Of a DNA stretch of 64,000 nucleotides, positions 1 to 7,944 are shown piece by piece. The stretch covers positions 1-64,000 of the forward strand of contig NZ_JACJQO010000021.1 in NCBI RefSeq assembly GCF_014696715.1, written 5' to 3'. Origin of the DNA: Pseudanabaena sp. FACHB-2040 (GTDB taxonomy: Bacteria > Cyanobacteriota > Cyanobacteriia > Phormidesmidales > Phormidesmidaceae). The notes beneath the pieces were generated by a model, which worked only from the letters and a program-made list of their open reading frames with translations, did no database searches and was not told where the DNA came from. Position 1 is the first letter of the stretch. Each line of letters begins with the position of its first letter. The translations under genes and the position numbers were made by a program.

Positions 1-150
1 AATCCAGGACCTAACAATCCAGGACCCAACAATCCAGGACCCAACAATCCAGGACCTAACAATCCAGGACCTAACAATCCAGGACCTAACAATCCAGGAC
101 CTAACAATCCAGGGCCCAACAATCCAGGACCCAACAATCCAGGACCTGAA
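1..150 (+). repeat. 15-bp tandem repeat, ten copies, encoding NPGPN
   Basis: The unit is AATCCAGGACCTAAC. Nine complete copies span 1-135 and a tenth (136-150) ends in GAA instead of AAC. Differences among copies are almost all CCT/CCC and GGA/GGG wobble changes, so the peptide is conserved. The array probably continues upstream of the window. Since the unit is a multiple of three, changes in copy number would lengthen or shorten the protein without breaking the frame. Confidence 0.95.
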
Positions 151-327
151 TTTCCTGACAAGGTAGCTCCAACTAGTCAAGCTCCAGGGCTATCGATTGA
201 GACGCCTGGGCGCGATGGGGCACCTCCTCCAGGGCTAGTAAATGGCACGCCTCCTGGGCAAGAAATTGTAAATCCAGGTCGTAGTGATGTTTTGCCTCCT
301 GGGCAGGGTAATACCAATACGCCTTAA
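1..327 (+). CDS. C-terminal part of a Pro/Gly/Asn-rich repeat protein (5' partial)
   Basis: The gene enters from the left edge; 108 codons are visible in frame 1, ending in TAA at 325. Residues 1-50 are ten copies of the pentapeptide NPGPN, the last one ending in E, encoded by a 15-bp tandem repeat. The remaining 58 residues keep the bias, with scattered PPG, PGR and PGQ motifs (for example APPPGLVNGTPPGQ). No catalytic motif is visible. The composition suggests an extended, low-complexity tail of a secreted or surface protein, but any signal peptide lies outside the window. A strong hairpin follows 84 bp after the stop. I do not recognise the family. Being coding is supported by the intact frame through the repeats and by third-position C/T variation that leaves the peptide unchanged. 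Confidence 0.7.
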   Translation, partial: NPGPNNPGPNNPGPNNPGPNNPGPNNPGPNNPGPNNPGPNNPGPNNPGPEFPDKVAPTSQAPGLSIETPGRDGAPPPGLVNGTPPGQEIVNPGRSDVLPPGQGNTNTP

Positions 328-545: not shown

Positions 546-3500
546 TTAACTCTCTAGCTTAACGGTTTCATCCACCTCTTCTTCCACGTTCCAGCCATCG
601 GGTAAGACGCAGGTGCTGCTGTCTATGATTTCGCTTTCCTCGATTTCGCTTTCTTCAGGTTTTGTATATAGGTCTGCAATATCTTCAGAAGGGTTGTTGA
701 AGGCTTCGAGCTCTTCTGCTGAGGCTTCGTTTTGAAGCTGCTGCTCAACGGCAAGTAGATCTGCCAGCACCTCCTCACTGCTTTGGTACCTTTCTGTGAA
801 GTCGTAGCGCACAAGTTGGGTCAGGATGTTGGCGAATTCTGAATTAAGCGTGGAGACAGCGTGCTTCCAAATCACCTCACCAAATTTATCTCGCTGTAAG
901 GCATAGGGAGGGAGTCCAGTTAGGGCTTCGATAGCGGTAATGCCAATAGCATAGAGGTCACTGTTTAATTTAGGCATTCCGGCAGACTGTTCGCTGGGCA
1001 TGTACCCTTGCGTGCCAATACCAATGGTGGAGGTTACTTGAGCATAGGTATCAGTGAGCTTGTTGGAGATTTGTTTGACTGCACCAAAGTCAATTAGCAC
1101 TAGGCGCTTATCGGATTTGCGACGGATTAGGTTAGAAGGTTTGATGTCTCTGTGAATAACATTCTGGCTGTGAACAAAGGTCACAACTGGCAGGATGTCT
1201 TTGAGCAAGCTGAGGACATAGAGCTGGGATTTGGGCGTACGGGAGGCTAGCTCATCTCGAAGCAGACGCCCTTCAATCATTTCTTCTACCAGATAGAAGG
1301 AGTAGTGAGCTTCAAAAGAGGCTAGCAGTCGAGGAATTTGATCGTGGTGGCCCAACTGTTCTAAGGTCTCGGCTTCTGCGGTGAAGAGTCTGCGGGCCAG
1401 GATGTGGGCTTTGGGGTCATCGCTGATGATTTTGAGCTGCTTGACTACGCAGGTTGGCGAACCGGGACGCTGGGTGTCTTGGGCGACGTAGGTTTCCCCA
1501 AATCCGCCTGATCCCAGTAGTTTGATAACTTGGTAGCGATCTTGCAGCAGCAGACCGATGACTTCTTCTTCGCGGGCCTTGAGCAGGTCGTGAAAGTCTT
1601 CCTGCTGACTAATGATCTCCTGAACAATAGGTGAAGTTGCATAGAAGGCTAGGGTCTTGCGCAGCCGCTGTTTGCTGATTTGCTCGGTCACTACATTTGT
1701 GATGAGGTAGGCTCCACCCATGGTCAAAAAAGCAATGATAGGGGTGGCTGTAGGCAGCACGACTCCAGCCTGAGAGAAGACTACAAAGCCTAGCCCCAAC
1801 CACAGGCCAGCGCTGGAAACTGTTAGCGCTAAACGAGCCGTTGGGCGCTTGAGCTGACGTAACAAGAGGCCGTACCCGCAGCCTGTTGCCAGGATTAAAA
1901 GCCCTCGCATCCAGGGTTGGGGCAATCCTTCTCGGAGGGCAGTACCGGCTTGTAGAGTAGCGATGTCGTTGGCTAGGATTTCGACGCCTGAGAGGGGCTT
2001 GGGGTAGAAGAAGGTTTGGGAGAAGGGGGCAGCCCAGAAGTCTTGCAGGCTGCCTGCTGTAGCACCAATGATGACGATCTTGTCTTTAAAAACTGTGCCG
2101 GACTGGAGGTAGTTAGTCCAGGGATCGGAATCGAGCACGTACCAGAACGGGATGTGCTCAAAGGTGCGGTGGGGGCCGGAGTAGTTGATGTAGGGACCAG
2201 GTGGGGCAGGATAATCGATCTCGGCTACAGCTAAGACACTCTCGGCAAAACTTTTGACGGAGTCAATTTCGCTGTCGATAGTGCTGGTGCTGTCGATGTC
2301 TGCGTTGGATTTGGCTAAGTCGCTAATGTACTGGCTACCCTGTCTGTGAATGCGCCCATCGATTTCAATGGGGAATTGGACGAGTCCGGTTGTTGCGGGC
2401 GTGTTGAGGAGAATCGGAATGGGTAGGTTGGGCCGGGATAGGTCGCCCTGGTTTAGGTCTGTGCTGCTGAAGGTTGAGCCAAGGACAACGCGATCGCCGT
2501 ACTGGTTTAAGATTTGGGCGAACTGCTGGTCGTCGCTGGGTCCATAAGCGCTGTTAGTAGTGAAAAGAACATCGAAAGCAACAACTTTGGCTCCGGCATT
2601 GACTAGGCGCTCGATTGCGATCGCAATCAGCAGCGCCTCAGCAATGTGGTGCCCCAAACTGTATTTAATAAACTTAAACCGCTCTATATCCAGATACAGC
2701 ACAGCCAGGGAACGGCGGCTATCGTTGCGCTGCGCCTCGATTAGCTCCTCTAGCCGCTGCAGAAAAAGACTGCGGCGGGGCAAGCTAGTCAGCGGGTCAA
2801 AGTAGGCCAGCCGCTTAAGCTGTTCCTCTGCCTGCTTCTGCTCCGTCACATCCTGCACCATCGATAGCAGCCCGACAAAGTTGCCTTCTGCGTCTAGCAA
2901 GGGGGTGTTGTGCCAGCTGCACAAAATTAGCCGACCGGTGCAGGTCTGGTTTTCATTAAAACAGTGGGCCGTCATGTCCCCCTGGACAACTCGCTGAAAG
3001 ATCTGACTGACCTGAGATTGGGCTGAAGGCGGCACAATTCGGCTGAAGGGGTGCTGACCCAAGACTTCTGCTTTGGTGTAACCAAAAATAGACTCAGCTG
3101 CTTGGTTCCAGTCGACAAAGCGGAATTCCTGATCGTGAATAATGCAGCCCACCGGCATCCGGTCGATCTGTAGCTGCAGCCGTTCCTTCAAAGCCTGCGT
3201 TTGCTCAAACAGCTGTGCATTGAGAATTGCCAGCGTACACCGCTCACCAATAATTTCCAGCAAGTGCAAAATCCGCTCCTGATAGGGCTGGATGTTTTGC
3301 CACTCAAGCTGTAGCACCCCAATGCGCTGGGTACCTCTTTGCAAAGGCACGCCCAGCAAAGTGTGGGTTAAGCGCGGCATCGGGCTAGCGGCTCTAAAGC
3401 GCAAATCCTGGCTAGCATCTTCTACATAGAGCGGTTTACCGGTCTGAAAGACAGTTCCGGCAAATCCCTCTCCCACAATGCTGTTGTAAAGCGTGATTTC

Positions 3501-4310
3501 GGACTCAGACAACCCCCGACTAGCGCGAACGTAGAGACTGTGATTTTGGCTAAGTAGAATCATCGCCGCGTCTGCCTGAGTGACTGACATCAGCCGATCT
3601 AGCAGGACACTGAGCAGTTCTTCTAAATTGAGGGTGCTGACGGCGTTGGCAGTAATCAGATGCAGCGCCTGCAGATCTTCAGCCTGCGCCTGCAGATTGG
3701 CGATGAGCTGCTGCCGCTCTTCCTGCAACTGCTTGTATTCAGTCAAATCGCGAGCAATGCCGATCAGGCCCTGTACATGCCCCTGAGAATTGCGCCAGAC
3801 ATACTTGGTTGACCAAAAAGTCCTGATCTGGGAGCCCTGTAAAACCTGCTCTTCTAAACTGACCGGCTCACCCCTAGCCATGATCTCCTGATCGGCTTTT
3901 TGGATCTGCTGAGCCATTTCTGCAGGCATAAGGGCTGTATCCTCCCGATTCAAAATGGCGTCTACAGGCTGACCTAGAATCGAGGCTGTTACCGAATTCA
4001 CCATAATGTAGCGACCTCGGCGGTCTTTGACAAAAATCGCGTCGGTGGTGCCCTCCACGACTTTTTGCAGCAAGGTATAGCTTTTATGCTGAGAACGCTG
4101 GTTGGTCTGCAACAGTCCGTACAGAATGCCGCTAGTGGCTAGGACAAAGAACCAACCCTTCAAAGTTTGCAGTTGGGTCAGTAGTAACTCATTGGAGACG
4201 ATTTTTTCGAGAAAATAATCAGAAACTAGTATCCAACACGCGCTAGTAAAGGCATAAACCAAAACGATACGGATAGCTGCGTATTTCTTAAAAGGATTCC
4301 CGACAACCAT
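546..4310 (-). CDS. chimeric signalling protein: 2 TM, PAS, GAF, PAS, partial GGDEF, partial CHASE2, 3 TM, Ser/Thr kinase
   Basis: The 1254-residue protein has two N-terminal membrane helices (about 13-34 and 48-68), PAS (80-192), GAF (225-368), PAS (378-492) and the first ~60 residues of a GGDEF domain (500-563). The sequence then switches to CHASE2, joining at RLVNAGAKVVAFDVLF (568-583) and so lacking its usual start. Three TM helices follow (about 801-875). The eukaryotic-type kinase (925-1190) has a glycine loop GSGGFGET, a lysine in VVKQL (957), HRDIKPSN (1053-1060) and DFG (1074-1076), so it looks catalytically complete. The GGDEF half stops before its signature motif. The junction is the codons of IAIA, that is a HIP1 palindrome at 2613-2628. 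A cytoplasmic PAS-GAF part followed by three TM helices would put the kinase outside the cell. The gene may be a recombinant, a natural fusion or an assembly join. A weak AGGA precedes the ATG. Confidence 0.85.
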   Translation of the reverse strand: MVVGNPFKKYAAIRIVLVYAFTSACWILVSDYFLEKIVSNELLLTQLQTLKGWFFVLATSGILYGLLQTNQRSQHKSYTLLQKVVEGTTDAIFVKDRRGRYIMVNSVTASILGQPVDAILNREDTALMPAEMAQQIQKADQEIMARGEPVSLEEQVLQGSQIRTFWSTKYVWRNSQGHVQGLIGIARDLTEYKQLQEERQQLIANLQAQAEDLQALHLITANAVSTLNLEELLSVLLDRLMSVTQADAAMILLSQNHSLYVRASRGLSESEITLYNSIVGEGFAGTVFQTGKPLYVEDASQDLRFRAASPMPRLTHTLLGVPLQRGTQRIGVLQLEWQNIQPYQERILHLLEIIGERCTLAILNAQLFEQTQALKERLQLQIDRMPVGCIIHDQEFRFVDWNQAAESIFGYTKAEVLGQHPFSRIVPPSAQSQVSQIFQRVVQGDMTAHCFNENQTCTGRLILCSWHNTPLLDAEGNFVGLLSMVQDVTEQKQAEEQLKRLAYFDPLTSLPRRSLFLQRLEELIEAQRNDSRRSLAVLYLDIERFKFIKYSLGHHIAEALLIAIAIERLVNAGAKVVAFDVLFTTNSAYGPSDDQQFAQILNQYGDRVVLGSTFSSTDLNQGDLSRPNLPIPILLNTPATTGLVQFPIEIDGRIHRQGSQYISDLAKSNADIDSTSTIDSEIDSVKSFAESVLAVAEIDYPAPPGPYINYSGPHRTFEHIPFWYVLDSDPWTNYLQSGTVFKDKIVIIGATAGSLQDFWAAPFSQTFFYPKPLSGVEILANDIATLQAGTALREGLPQPWMRGLLILATGCGYGLLLRQLKRPTARLALTVSSAGLWLGLGFVVFSQAGVVLPTATPIIAFLTMGGAYLITNVVTEQISKQRLRKTLAFYATSPIVQEIISQQEDFHDLLKAREEEVIGLLLQDRYQVIKLLGSGGFGETYVAQDTQRPGSPTCVVKQLKIISDDPKAHILARRLFTAEAETLEQLGHHDQIPRLLASFEAHYSFYLVEEMIEGRLLRDELASRTPKSQLYVLSLLKDILPVVTFVHSQNVIHRDIKPSNLIRRKSDKRLVLIDFGAVKQISNKLTDTYAQVTSTIGIGTQGYMPSEQSAGMPKLNSDLYAIGITAIEALTGLPPYALQRDKFGEVIWKHAVSTLNSEFANILTQLVRYDFTERYQSSEEVLADLLAVEQQLQNEASAEELEAFNNPSEDIADLYTKPEESEIEESEIIDSSTCVLPDGWNVEEEVDETVKLES
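2613..2628. other. HIP1-centred 16-bp palindrome at the domain junction
   Basis: GATTGCGATCGCAATC is a perfect palindrome built around HIP1 (GCGATCGC, 2617-2624). It lies exactly where the protein changes from GGDEF to CHASE2 sequence (residues 561-566). HIP1 is very abundant in cyanobacterial genomes, so similar sites in two genes can serve as short homology for recombination or for misassembly. Confidence 0.85.
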
Positions 4311-4523: not shown

Positions 4524-5852
4524 TTACAATCGGCTGCGGTTTTTGATGCGAAGGTAAGCCTCGACCAGAGGATCGGTGATCCGGTTAGCGGGCGCATCTA
4601 GCACTAAGACGCCCCGCTGCTGCAGGCGGGTAAAGACGGCCTGCCGCTGGGCCAGTAGATCTAAGGCCACTGCTCGCGAGTAAGCCTCACCTACCTGAGT
4701 CTGAAAAGTTTGGGCCCGCCGGTCTACTTCGGGATCGCGCAGGGTGACGCAGAAGGGTAGATAACGGGGTCGCAGCCTCACCAGCGCTGACAGCAGCTCT
4801 GCTGAGGCAGTTTGGTCTACAACATCGGTGAGCACTACTACTAGGGCGCGGCGGTGCTGCTGTTTTACGATTTGGGTAACTGCCCCTAGGTAGTCGGACT
4901 CCAGCAGCACTGGCTGAAGCGGCGTTAGCCGCTCGATCATTTGCTGCAGATAGGGCTGGCCTCCTTTGGGCGGCAGCCAACTGTGAAGCGTGCGATCAAA
5001 CACGCCTATGCCGACGCGATCGCCCCGATGAATGCCTGCCAGAGCTAGGGCTAGGGCAGCATTGAGGCCCCAGTCAAAGCGGGACAGGCCCTGGACTTGC
5101 GCGGTCATCAGGCGACCTCGATCTAGCAGCACGATCAGGGTTTGCTCTCGCTCTGGTTCCAGAACCCGGACTAGGGGAGCGCTGTGGCGGGCGGTGGCTT
5201 TCCAGTCGATAAAGCGGGGGTCGTCGCCGGTGCCGTACTCCCGCAGCTCAGCAAATTCGGTGCCAACACCGAGCTGACGCTGCTGCCGCAGGGTGCCGGT
5301 CGACTGTAGCGCCAGCCGAATAGAGAGCTGGCGCAGGCCAATTAGGTCGGGGTAGACAGCAACTGTGCCCGCTAGCGGCAGCCTCCAGTCGGCCCAGGCC
5401 AGGCCCAACGGCCCCCGCTGCTGTACCTGCAGATCGCCCCAGGCATACTCTCCCCGATGTTTGGGGTTGACGGTATAGGTTAGCTCTGCTGGCTGCCCCA
5501 CTGGGATGCTCGCTACTAGGGGCATGGGCGTGCCCTCAAATTCGGCCGGGTAGTGGTCATAGATTCTTAGCTCAGCTGCTCTGGAACCTGGCTGCAGGGT
5601 CAGCGTCAGGGGATTGTCTCGCCCAATGGAGAGCCGGTGTAGGGGGGAGCGGGTAATCTGTGCCCGCTGGGAGCGCACTTGCCAGCCATCCCAAACCATT
5701 GCCAATAGCACGGCTCCGTCTAACACCAGCAGGGTGAAAATAGCTAGCCCTAACCGACTGGGGCCATCAGAAAAGGTGGACTGTAGGGTTGCGATCACAC
5801 CCAACGCCAGTAGCAGTCCGTAGGTGCGGGTTGTAGGAACCATTGCCATCAC
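4524..5852 (-). CDS. DUF58 family membrane protein, vWA-like
   Basis: This is the last gene of a four-gene operon and overlaps the MoxR gene by 4 bp. The 442-residue protein has two N-terminal hydrophobic helices (about 9-28 and 34-55), an Ig-like beta-rich middle and the DUF58 core with FAELREYGTGDDPRFIDWKATAR (split here as FAELREYGTGDD and PRFIDWKATAR). A vWA-like segment follows: LIVLLDRGRLM occupies the place of the metal-binding DxSxS motif, which is therefore degenerate. DUF58 proteins are the usual partners of MoxR ATPases, and the pair is thought to act in assembly or metal loading of envelope or multi-subunit proteins. The actual client is unknown. Family assignment is firm; function is inference. 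Confidence 0.88.
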   Translation of the reverse strand: MMAMVPTTRTYGLLLALGVIATLQSTFSDGPSRLGLAIFTLLVLDGAVLLAMVWDGWQVRSQRAQITRSPLHRLSIGRDNPLTLTLQPGSRAAELRIYDHYPAEFEGTPMPLVASIPVGQPAELTYTVNPKHRGEYAWGDLQVQQRGPLGLAWADWRLPLAGTVAVYPDLIGLRQLSIRLALQSTGTLRQQRQLGVGTEFAELREYGTGDDPRFIDWKATARHSAPLVRVLEPEREQTLIVLLDRGRLMTAQVQGLSRFDWGLNAALALALAGIHRGDRVGIGVFDRTLHSWLPPKGGQPYLQQMIERLTPLQPVLLESDYLGAVTQIVKQQHRRALVVVLTDVVDQTASAELLSALVRLRPRYLPFCVTLRDPEVDRRAQTFQTQVGEAYSRAVALDLLAQRQAVFTRLQQRGVLVLDAPANRITDPLVEAYLRIKNRSRL

Positions 5853-6799: not shown

Positions 6800-7944
6800 G
6801 GAGCGGGATTCCTCTTGAGGATGGATTGGTGTAGGGTTTGCAGGCGCTGCAGCCAGGCAGCTAGCTCTTGGTCGCGCTGTAGGCGGGTGGGAGGTTCGAC
6901 CAGGCTAGTCAGTTCCTGGGCGGCCTCTCCAGTTGACTGAGTCCAGGCTGTTTGTAAGGCGGCATCGGGTACAGGCCCTTCTCCTAGCCCCAGCGTTTTC
7001 TGTAGGGTCAGCCGCTCAGCTTTACTCAGGGTTGTGGTGACAAAATCGTGGCTACCTGCTTTGTGAAGCGCTCCGGCTAGGGCCGCAATATAGGCCTCGC
7101 TGTTGTCTACAACGGGTCTTTTAAGCCGCTGCTTAACGCCAAACCGACGGTTTTGCGCCACCAGCGCCACTAACCCCACCAGTACCAGCTGGGTAACAAT
7201 CACGACCAGAGGGGTCTGAGCCAGGTAGCTGATCCAGCTGTCGCCGGCTTCTTCAACTACCACATCGGCCTCTTTGTAGCCGTGCAGATACTCGTCTACC
7301 CAAATAGGGCCGCCCGCCTGAGTCACGACGTCGGCTAAAAAAGGGAAATTGCCAGGGTCAGCCTGGTAAGCATTTGCGGCTAGATGGGGGGTGACAATGA
7401 CGGTGACTAGGCCGTTGCCCTCGGGGCGCTGCCATGCGATCGCACCATAGTCATCGGCCAGTAGCGGCTGCCGGGCCTCAGATAGGCTAGCCCGTCGCCG
7501 CGTCTCAACTGTAATTAACCCCGCTGGGCTGGCCTGCTGGGTGGCAAACGGAGCGGCTGTAGCCGGTTCCTGTTGGCCCAAAATTATCACATGGTGACCC
7601 GCCTCGGCCCAGTCCGAGAGCCAGGGCCGCAGCGGGTACAGCGCTCCAGGCTGGATAAACCCAGAATTTACCTGTACCAAAGTTGCCGGGGCGTCGGGCG
7701 CTGAGGTTTCTGCCAGCTGCTTGATCAGGTCTTCGACTGGGCGCTGCCACCGCTGCAATGGCGTTCCCTGCTGAGCCATGTAGTCATACCAGGCACTGTA
7801 GCCATCGGGGCCTTGGTTCCAGCTAGAGCCGCTGGTCAGTCGGTTGCTGGCAGGAGCCGCTAAAAAAGACAAAAACGCCAGCAGTACCAGAAAGATCAGG
7901 CCAATCCACAGATAACGGTTAGACAGCCGCAGCGGTGCGGTCAT
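6796..7944 (-). CDS. DUF4350 domain membrane protein
   Basis: The 382-residue protein has an N-terminal TM helix (about 12-28), a soluble region resembling the DUF4350 fold (HVIILGQQEPAT followed by a conserved WVDEYLHG segment near residue 215), a second TM helix (about 240-262) and a charged C-terminal tail. The tail holds a predicted helical stretch ending in LQRLQTLHQSILKR. DUF4350 genes usually sit between DUF4129 and MoxR genes, as here. The soluble part between the two helices is predicted on the outer face. No catalytic residues are recognised. It overlaps both neighbours by 4 bp, which argues for equimolar expression in one complex. Confidence 0.85.
   Translation of the reverse strand: MTAPLRLSNRYLWIGLIFLVLLAFLSFLAAPASNRLTSGSSWNQGPDGYSAWYDYMAQQGTPLQRWQRPVEDLIKQLAETSAPDAPATLVQVNSGFIQPGALYPLRPWLSDWAEAGHHVIILGQQEPATAAPFATQQASPAGLITVETRRRASLSEARQPLLADDYGAIAWQRPEGNGLVTVIVTPHLAANAYQADPGNFPFLADVVTQAGGPIWVDEYLHGYKEADVVVEEAGDSWISYLAQTPLVVIVTQLVLVGLVALVAQNRRFGVKQRLKRPVVDNSEAYIAALAGALHKAGSHDFVTTTLSKAERLTLQKTLGLGEGPVPDAALQTAWTQSTGEAAQELTSLVEPPTRLQRDQELAAWLQRLQTLHQSILKRNPAP

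Follow-up and report, generated by a model that had tools for sequence, protein, structure and literature searches.

A putative deletion between HIP1 copies that joins two signalling genes in one reading frame in Pseudanabaena sp. FACHB-2040

The window analyzed here is the first 64,000 nucleotides of contig NZ_JACJQO010000021.1 of Pseudanabaena sp. FACHB-2040 (assembly GCF_014696715.1; genome G000 in our set, contig C21:1-64000), a draft assembly of 44 contigs and 6.28 Mb that is rated 99.95% complete. On its minus strand lies an open reading frame (ORF) of 1254 codons without interruption, in which the N-terminal part of a PAS-GAF-PAS-GGDEF-EAL protein is continued by a CHASE2-Ser/Thr-kinase protein. 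The elements of this ORF, including possible transmembrane (TM) helices, are as follows.

546-4310, minus strand: fused ORF of 1254 amino acids, TM - PAS - GAF - PAS - half GGDEF / truncated CHASE2 - TM - Ser/Thr kinase (ORF list and Pfam)
2616-4310, minus strand: part from the PAS-GAF-PAS-GGDEF-EAL parent, residues 1-565 (alignment to the orthologue in genome G001; DNA match ends at 2616)
3225-3632, minus strand: GAF domain, residues 227-362 (Pfam)
2835-3164, minus strand: PAS domain adjoining GGDEF, residues 383-492 (Pfam)
2616-2807, minus strand: first 39% of the GGDEF domain, residues 502-565, profile positions 1-63 of 161 (Pfam); signature and EAL domain lost
549-2615, minus strand: part from the CHASE2-Ser/Thr-kinase parent, residues 566-1254 (matches of relatives mostly start at residue 561-563)
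1881-2615, minus strand: truncated CHASE2 domain, profile positions 61-252 of 257 (Pfam)
1701-1910, minus strand: three possible TM helices, residues ~801-820 (weak), 827-846 and 851-870 (crude hydropathy scales, low-confidence predicted structure)
780-1535, minus strand: Ser/Thr protein kinase domain, residues 926-1177, catalytic motifs present (Pfam and alignment)

The open frame and the Pfam layout bear out the join that a sequence-only reading of this DNA had proposed, namely of PAS-GAF-PAS and a partial GGDEF domain to a CHASE2-kinase. The GGDEF domain is indeed broken before its signature, and the parent of the N-terminal part had an EAL domain that was lost as well, beyond the GGDEF loss named in that reading. 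The fused protein thus has neither the GGDEF signature nor the EAL domain of a GGDEF-EAL cyclic di-GMP (c-di-GMP) enzyme. The PAS_4 profile matches two stretches, the better one being 383-492. Read from the seam, CHASE2 scores 95.9 bits and has lost approximately its first 60 profile positions (about the first quarter), which an intact relative covers from position 5 to 252. With the GGDEF stub added the score is 101.2 bits; since the stub raises it by just 5.3 bits, it resembles the lost part of CHASE2 only slightly. The complete CHASE2 domain and preceding TM helix of the cbSTKII type are lacking, the parental N-terminus having been lost in the fusion. The kinase domain of that type is present, with the motifs VVKQL, HRDIKPSN and DFG in alignment.

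The seam itself lies where the sequence-only reading had placed it, at codons for IAIA inside a palindrome that contains HIP1.

2613-2628, no strand: 16-bp palindrome GATTGCGATCGCAATC at the seam, one copy in the window
2617-2624, no strand: HIP1 octamer GCGATCGC, putative deletion junction (motif count, alignment end, codon comparison)

The 16-bp palindrome has a mean count of 0.00 in shuffled sequence. HIP1 alone occurs 49 times in the window against 0.94 expected. The minus-strand reading of the palindrome, ATT GCG ATC GCA ATC, encodes I A I A I, residues 562-566.

Separate counterparts were found for both halves of the frame. Genome G001, the sole genome of the same genus compared (78% complete, 680 contigs), has an intact PAS-GAF-PAS-GGDEF-EAL protein of 944 amino acids with 85% amino acid identity over fusion residues 1-566. 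The DNA match between the window and G001 contig C304 (83%) extends from the end of C304 to position 6910 and terminates in the window at C21:2616, at the HIP1 in each of the two sequences; the C304 copy occupies 6911-6918. In this intact orthologue (5803-8634 of C304, locus L040) the GGDEF signature is degenerate (ESDEF) and the EAL match is full-length, suggesting a phosphodiesterase. For the other half, a search of 39 genomes, the window's own included, found separate CHASE2-kinase frames of 733-883 amino acids, matching from residue 540-563 onward, at no fewer than 18 places in at least 17 other genomes of the family; at a nineteenth place (G019) a stop codon leaves a frame of 578 amino acids. 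A peptide of 145 residues across the seam was compared with 63 family genomes, again including the window's own. The same join in another genome, a result that would have refuted the sequence-only reading, did not appear: no match listed in the 62 other genomes spans the seam, the best match being listed for 60 of the 62 (the other two are G065 and G066, with E-values of 5.0e-11 and 3.5e-9). The best left-hand match, from G001, stops at query position 74, right at the seam, and the right-hand matches begin at 47-72. Some GGDEF proteins cross the seam weakly, the longest reaching query positions 104 and 106 at 35 and 37% identity.

Comparison of codons places HIP1 in the same phase in the GGDEF gene of G001 and in some of the CHASE2-kinase relatives. 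The fusion reads CTG ATT GCG ATC GCA ATC GAG CGC on the coding strand, and the GGDEF gene of G001 reads CTA ATT GCG ATC GCA CGC CGC. Among CHASE2-kinase relatives, 12 of 34 aligned rows carry GCGATCGC in matching codons and matching phase, equivalent to 10 of 32 distinct loci (L024, L065 and L079 being one locus). The sequence common to both parents would then be the 8 bp of HIP1, perhaps extended to 9-10 bp by the T and A on either side. The 16-bp palindrome may accordingly have arisen through the join, with a GGDEF-derived left arm and a CHASE2-derived right arm. Depending on the CHASE2 sequence used, HIP1 makes up 3 of 251, 4 of 183 or 2 of 147 of the 8-mers shared by the two parental genes in the same orientation, and HIP1-containing words make up 1 of 20, 1 of 13 or 0 of 7 of the shared 10-mers. 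If all shared 8-mers were equal, a junction at HIP1 would be a 1-2% coincidence, which is suggestive, but concerns a single event that was picked because it was noticed.

The flanks were compared with those of the relatives. Two further features frame the fused gene.

1-327, plus strand: 3' end of a FecR-domain gene with (NNPGP)n repeats that starts on contig C11 (repeat match, neighbor homology)
4527-5852, minus strand: DUF58 gene, upstream neighbor of the fused ORF (same order in G001, 90% amino acid identity)

The repeat at C21:1 is also found at the end of contig C11, so that C11 and C21 are probably neighbors; the FecR-domain (NNPGP)n tandem repeat breaks the assembly. The genes at the end of C11 are 43-60% homologues of the 3' neighbors of the CHASE2-kinase gene in G011 and G017, and G001 contig C372 matches the C11 end before stopping in a similar repeat gene. 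On the other side, a DUF58 gene lies upstream of the intact G001 orthologue, as in the window. Each flank of the fused gene is colinear with G001 contigs, but the joining stretch with the CHASE2-kinase gene is lacking from G001. A TetR regulator gene, which in G001 lies on C304 and faces out of the contig, has the orientation expected from the relatives. In 23 of 29 genomes TetR is found within 5 kb of the CHASE2-kinase gene, always on its 5' side and in 20 cases divergent. These 29 are the genomes with a listed CHASE2-kinase match and a best TetR match of at least 50% identity; two genomes with TetR and no listed CHASE2 match, and those with weaker TetR matches, were left out. The spacing from TetR to CHASE2 in the 20 divergent relatives is 600-1490 bp. 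Adding this spacing to the C304 stretch gives a deletion of ~7.2-8.1 kb.

What lies in that stretch was not found in the genome of the window. C304:1-6909 carries the TetR regulator, an N6/N4 DNA methyltransferase, a DUF975-like gene (assigned under the Pfam cut-off), a transglutaminase-like gene and the remaining GGDEF-EAL portion. Among the 40 of 114 candidates that were scored, it gave only short paralogous DNA matches in G000. A search of G000 with the whole 944-residue orthologue found no orthologue of the EAL half, the long matches being at most 47% identical and one 58-residue piece 52%. The lost CHASE2 start was likewise not found in G000, where an N-terminal CHASE2 profile built from 15 rows detected a distant paralogue only; this sole match, C1:178519-178761, belongs to a separate CHASE2-PAS-histidine kinase. 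For TetR the best G000 protein match is 45% identical, and it too has no DNA counterpart. The methyltransferase, DUF975-like and transglutaminase-like genes, sought by DNA only, were not found in G000. The methyltransferase gene, at 1388-2332 of L040, is thus one that the lost segment would have carried. An NYN-domain gene seen in G011 and G017 was considered as a lost 5' neighbor and dropped, as an 89% identical homologue lies elsewhere in G000 (C5:883493).

From these comparisons, the fused gene is very probably what remained after one deletion event between two HIP1 copies lying in phase. Since no CHASE2-kinase gene was found in G001, we infer the full ancestral order from contigs of several genomes. 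It would have run from a FecR/NNPGP gene (forward) through the CHASE2-kinase gene (reverse), TetR (forward), the DNA methyltransferase (reverse) and the DUF975-like gene (forward) to the transglutaminase-like gene (forward), the PAS-GAF-PAS-GGDEF-EAL gene, DUF58 and MoxR (all three reverse). One HIP1 copy would have lain in A-I-A codons of GGDEF and the other in A-I-A codons of CHASE2 in the kinase gene, downstream on the same strand. The 8-10 bp in common may then have allowed slippage or short-homology recombination, with loss of all DNA between the middle of CHASE2 and the middle of GGDEF and with the hybrid frame kept open. The product would have lost its c-di-GMP output and normal CHASE2 sensing; the kinase would be kept and tethered to PAS-GAF-PAS, probably without tuned control. 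Deletion or recombination between HIP1 sites had been one of two possibilities offered by the sequence-only reading, and deletion is well supported by the separate parents, the in-phase HIP1 copies, the colinear flanks and the failure to find the lost parts; the other, an assembly join, is disfavored.

Several observations weigh against a deletion at HIP1. HIP1 is lacking at the seam codons in 22 of the 32 distinct CHASE2-kinase loci, so the HIP1 of the true CHASE2 parent is presumed. The octamer is just one kind among many shared words (2-4 of 147-251), and the event count is one. The other 15 ends of G000-G001 alignments all lie 349 bp or more from a HIP1. TetR stands apart from the CHASE2-kinase gene in 6 of the 29 genomes (on another contig in five, at 597 kb in one). 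Moreover, G001 C304 starts 280 bp before TetR and gives no CHASE2-kinase context there, the link between the two genes thus being unseen in G001 itself, and the contig order C372-C304-C497 in that genome is a reconstruction.

As regards HIP1 more generally, a hot spot for rearrangement was considered and set aside: one of 16 G000-G001 alignment ends falls at HIP1, in a weak test in which several ends are contig ends or repeat overlaps. Within the window, the 42 HIP1 copies in ORFs of at least 150 amino acids fall into the three phases as 18, 20 and 4, so that random HIP1-HIP1 joins would be in frame ~42% of the time. Little or no phase bias was seen in two of seven sequence sets, G002 (10, 10, 11) and G013 with G053 (12, 8, 11).

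An account compatible with deletion is that selection has retained the fusion as a functioning Ser/Thr kinase under PAS/GAF control, which we regard as unlikely on balance. The 1254-codon frame is open, and the ratio of nonsynonymous to synonymous divergence (dN/dS) in the N-terminal half, 0.096 (0.083/0.859), is like that of DUF58, 0.095 (0.056/0.591). The kinase is ordinary in its divergence, and of 27 sequences the CHASE2 remnant shows the top CHASE2/kinase divergence ratio, 1.58, as might fit a kept kinase and a relaxed CHASE2. However, the next ratio is 1.51, the sequences are related, and most of the divergence may predate the fusion. The GGDEF stub, which adds its few bits to the CHASE2 match, is not relaxed either, being still 91% identical to G001, and no second genome with the fusion was seen among the matches listed. 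A working PAS/GAF-coupled kinase is possible, and the term 'broken hybrid', applied earlier to this gene, is not established for a frame that is open, with kinase motifs present and kinase divergence ordinary.

Membrane topology bears on the same question. The sequence-only reading counted two TM helices before the seam, none at CHASE2 and three after it. By crude hydropathy scales, the candidates before the seam are 10-29, which is clear, and 47-66, which is weaker. At a cut-off of 1.2 segments inside PAS/GAF pass as well; a cut-off of 1.5 excludes 47-66 and 801-820 but admits the seam segment 556-574. On an insertion scale, 47-66 scores 6.0, the seam segment 6.6, the first helix after CHASE2 (801-820) 7.1 and the next two 1.5 and 4.3. 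The count is therefore plausible and is not shown by these scales. By parity, two helices ahead of the seam and three beyond it would put the kinase outside, and this was the basis of the topology formerly called impossible. Impossibility is not established, because the kinase would stay inside under either of two alternatives. If the first helix after CHASE2 stayed out of the membrane, the kinase would be cytoplasmic; its score is tied for the weakest of 27 sequences, but two intact relatives (L024, L031; range 1.8-7.1) also score 7.1, which weighs against this. Alternatively, the seam segment as a membrane helix could restore CHASE2 outside and kinase inside, a weak proposal as it contains E, R, N and K. 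Of the 28 sequences compared, the fusion has the most hydrophobic helix at this place (6.6 versus 10.3 in G001 and 8.3-15.9 in the 26 relatives with CHASE2), and this helix might replace the lost TM helix. Its score is close to those of 47-66 and 801-820, which were both counted. Four K/R residues in the loop 818-826 and four at 880-885 favor both being inside. A predicted structure of the hybrid has three long helices within 799-879 at low confidence; its mean pLDDT is a poor 57.0, and that of an intact CHASE2 relative is 55.9.

A fuller version is that dense, phase-biased HIP1 eases in-frame fusions in cyanobacteria and that one step made a working membrane Ser/Thr kinase driven by PAS-GAF-PAS, with CHASE2 decaying and the seam helix replacing the lost TM helix so that the kinase stays inside; this we consider more doubtful still. 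Less probable again, and by some way, is an assembly artefact, in which both genes are intact in the genome and two contigs were merged over an 8-10 bp HIP1 overlap with loss of the sequence between. The assembly is a draft, and one of its contigs starts in a tandem repeat 2.6 kb away from the seam. However, such an overlap is far shorter than assemblers usually require, an artefact would leave ~7 kb (the GGDEF-EAL end, four genes and the CHASE2 start) out of a nearly complete assembly, and both ends lie at in-phase HIP1, as a biological event would give. Least probable is an inversion, translocation or exchange with another copy, with the seam as one of two reciprocal junctions: HIP1 is cited near an inversion in Synechococcus elongatus and in plasmid recombination in Synechococcus (PMC9239245, in part), but each flank keeps the gene order of G001 contigs, and the reciprocal product, a CHASE2 start followed by the GGDEF end and EAL, was not found in G000 with either the orthologue or the CHASE2 N-terminus profile.

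The proposed deletion between HIP1 copies makes this locus a natural test case, since one can name its two parental genes, its junction and the segment that would have been lost. It is also a concrete example, by an in-frame join, of a HIP1 route to multidomain signalling proteins.

Rearrangements at this octamer have precedents. To judge by its title, a 1993 paper by Gupta et al. reportedly described a deletion associated with HIP1 at the metallothionein locus of Synechococcus PCC 6301, and HIP1-promoted excision is said to have been described by Robinson et al. in 1997. The first resembles our case, by title, in being a deletion involving HIP1, whereas the deletion proposed here would extend over several genes and fuse two signalling genes in frame. 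HIP1 in the smtB coding region is proposed to promote rearrangements (PMC6331805, in part), and HIP1, strongly over-represented in many cyanobacteria and of unsettled role, is discussed in connection with excision or site-specific recombination (PMC4390886, in part). The excision of 1997 and the Synechococcus cases (PMC9239245) share with the fused gene a rearrangement at or near the same octamer, but they concern cloned sequences, plasmids or an inversion, with no gene fusion in the text covered. No HIP1-made gene fusion was found among the papers listed in a literature search on HIP1, gene fusion and cyanobacteria, in which the one paper to combine all three subjects was on a methylase. Thus a HIP1-linked deletion is already in print, by citation, and the fused gene would be a new example.

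Compared with PAS-GAF-PAS-GGDEF-EAL proteins such as the G001 orthologue, the fusion is alike in its N-terminal 565 residues (85% identical) and differs in having lost the second half of GGDEF and the whole of EAL. The cyanobacterial cbSTKII kinases, which include all4838, alr1869 and tlr1540 (PMC2176072, in part), have CHASE2 and a Ser/Thr kinase in one protein with CHASE2 not C-terminal, as in the fusion; unlike them, the fusion is without the first TM helix and the first quarter of CHASE2 and has gained PAS-GAF-PAS.

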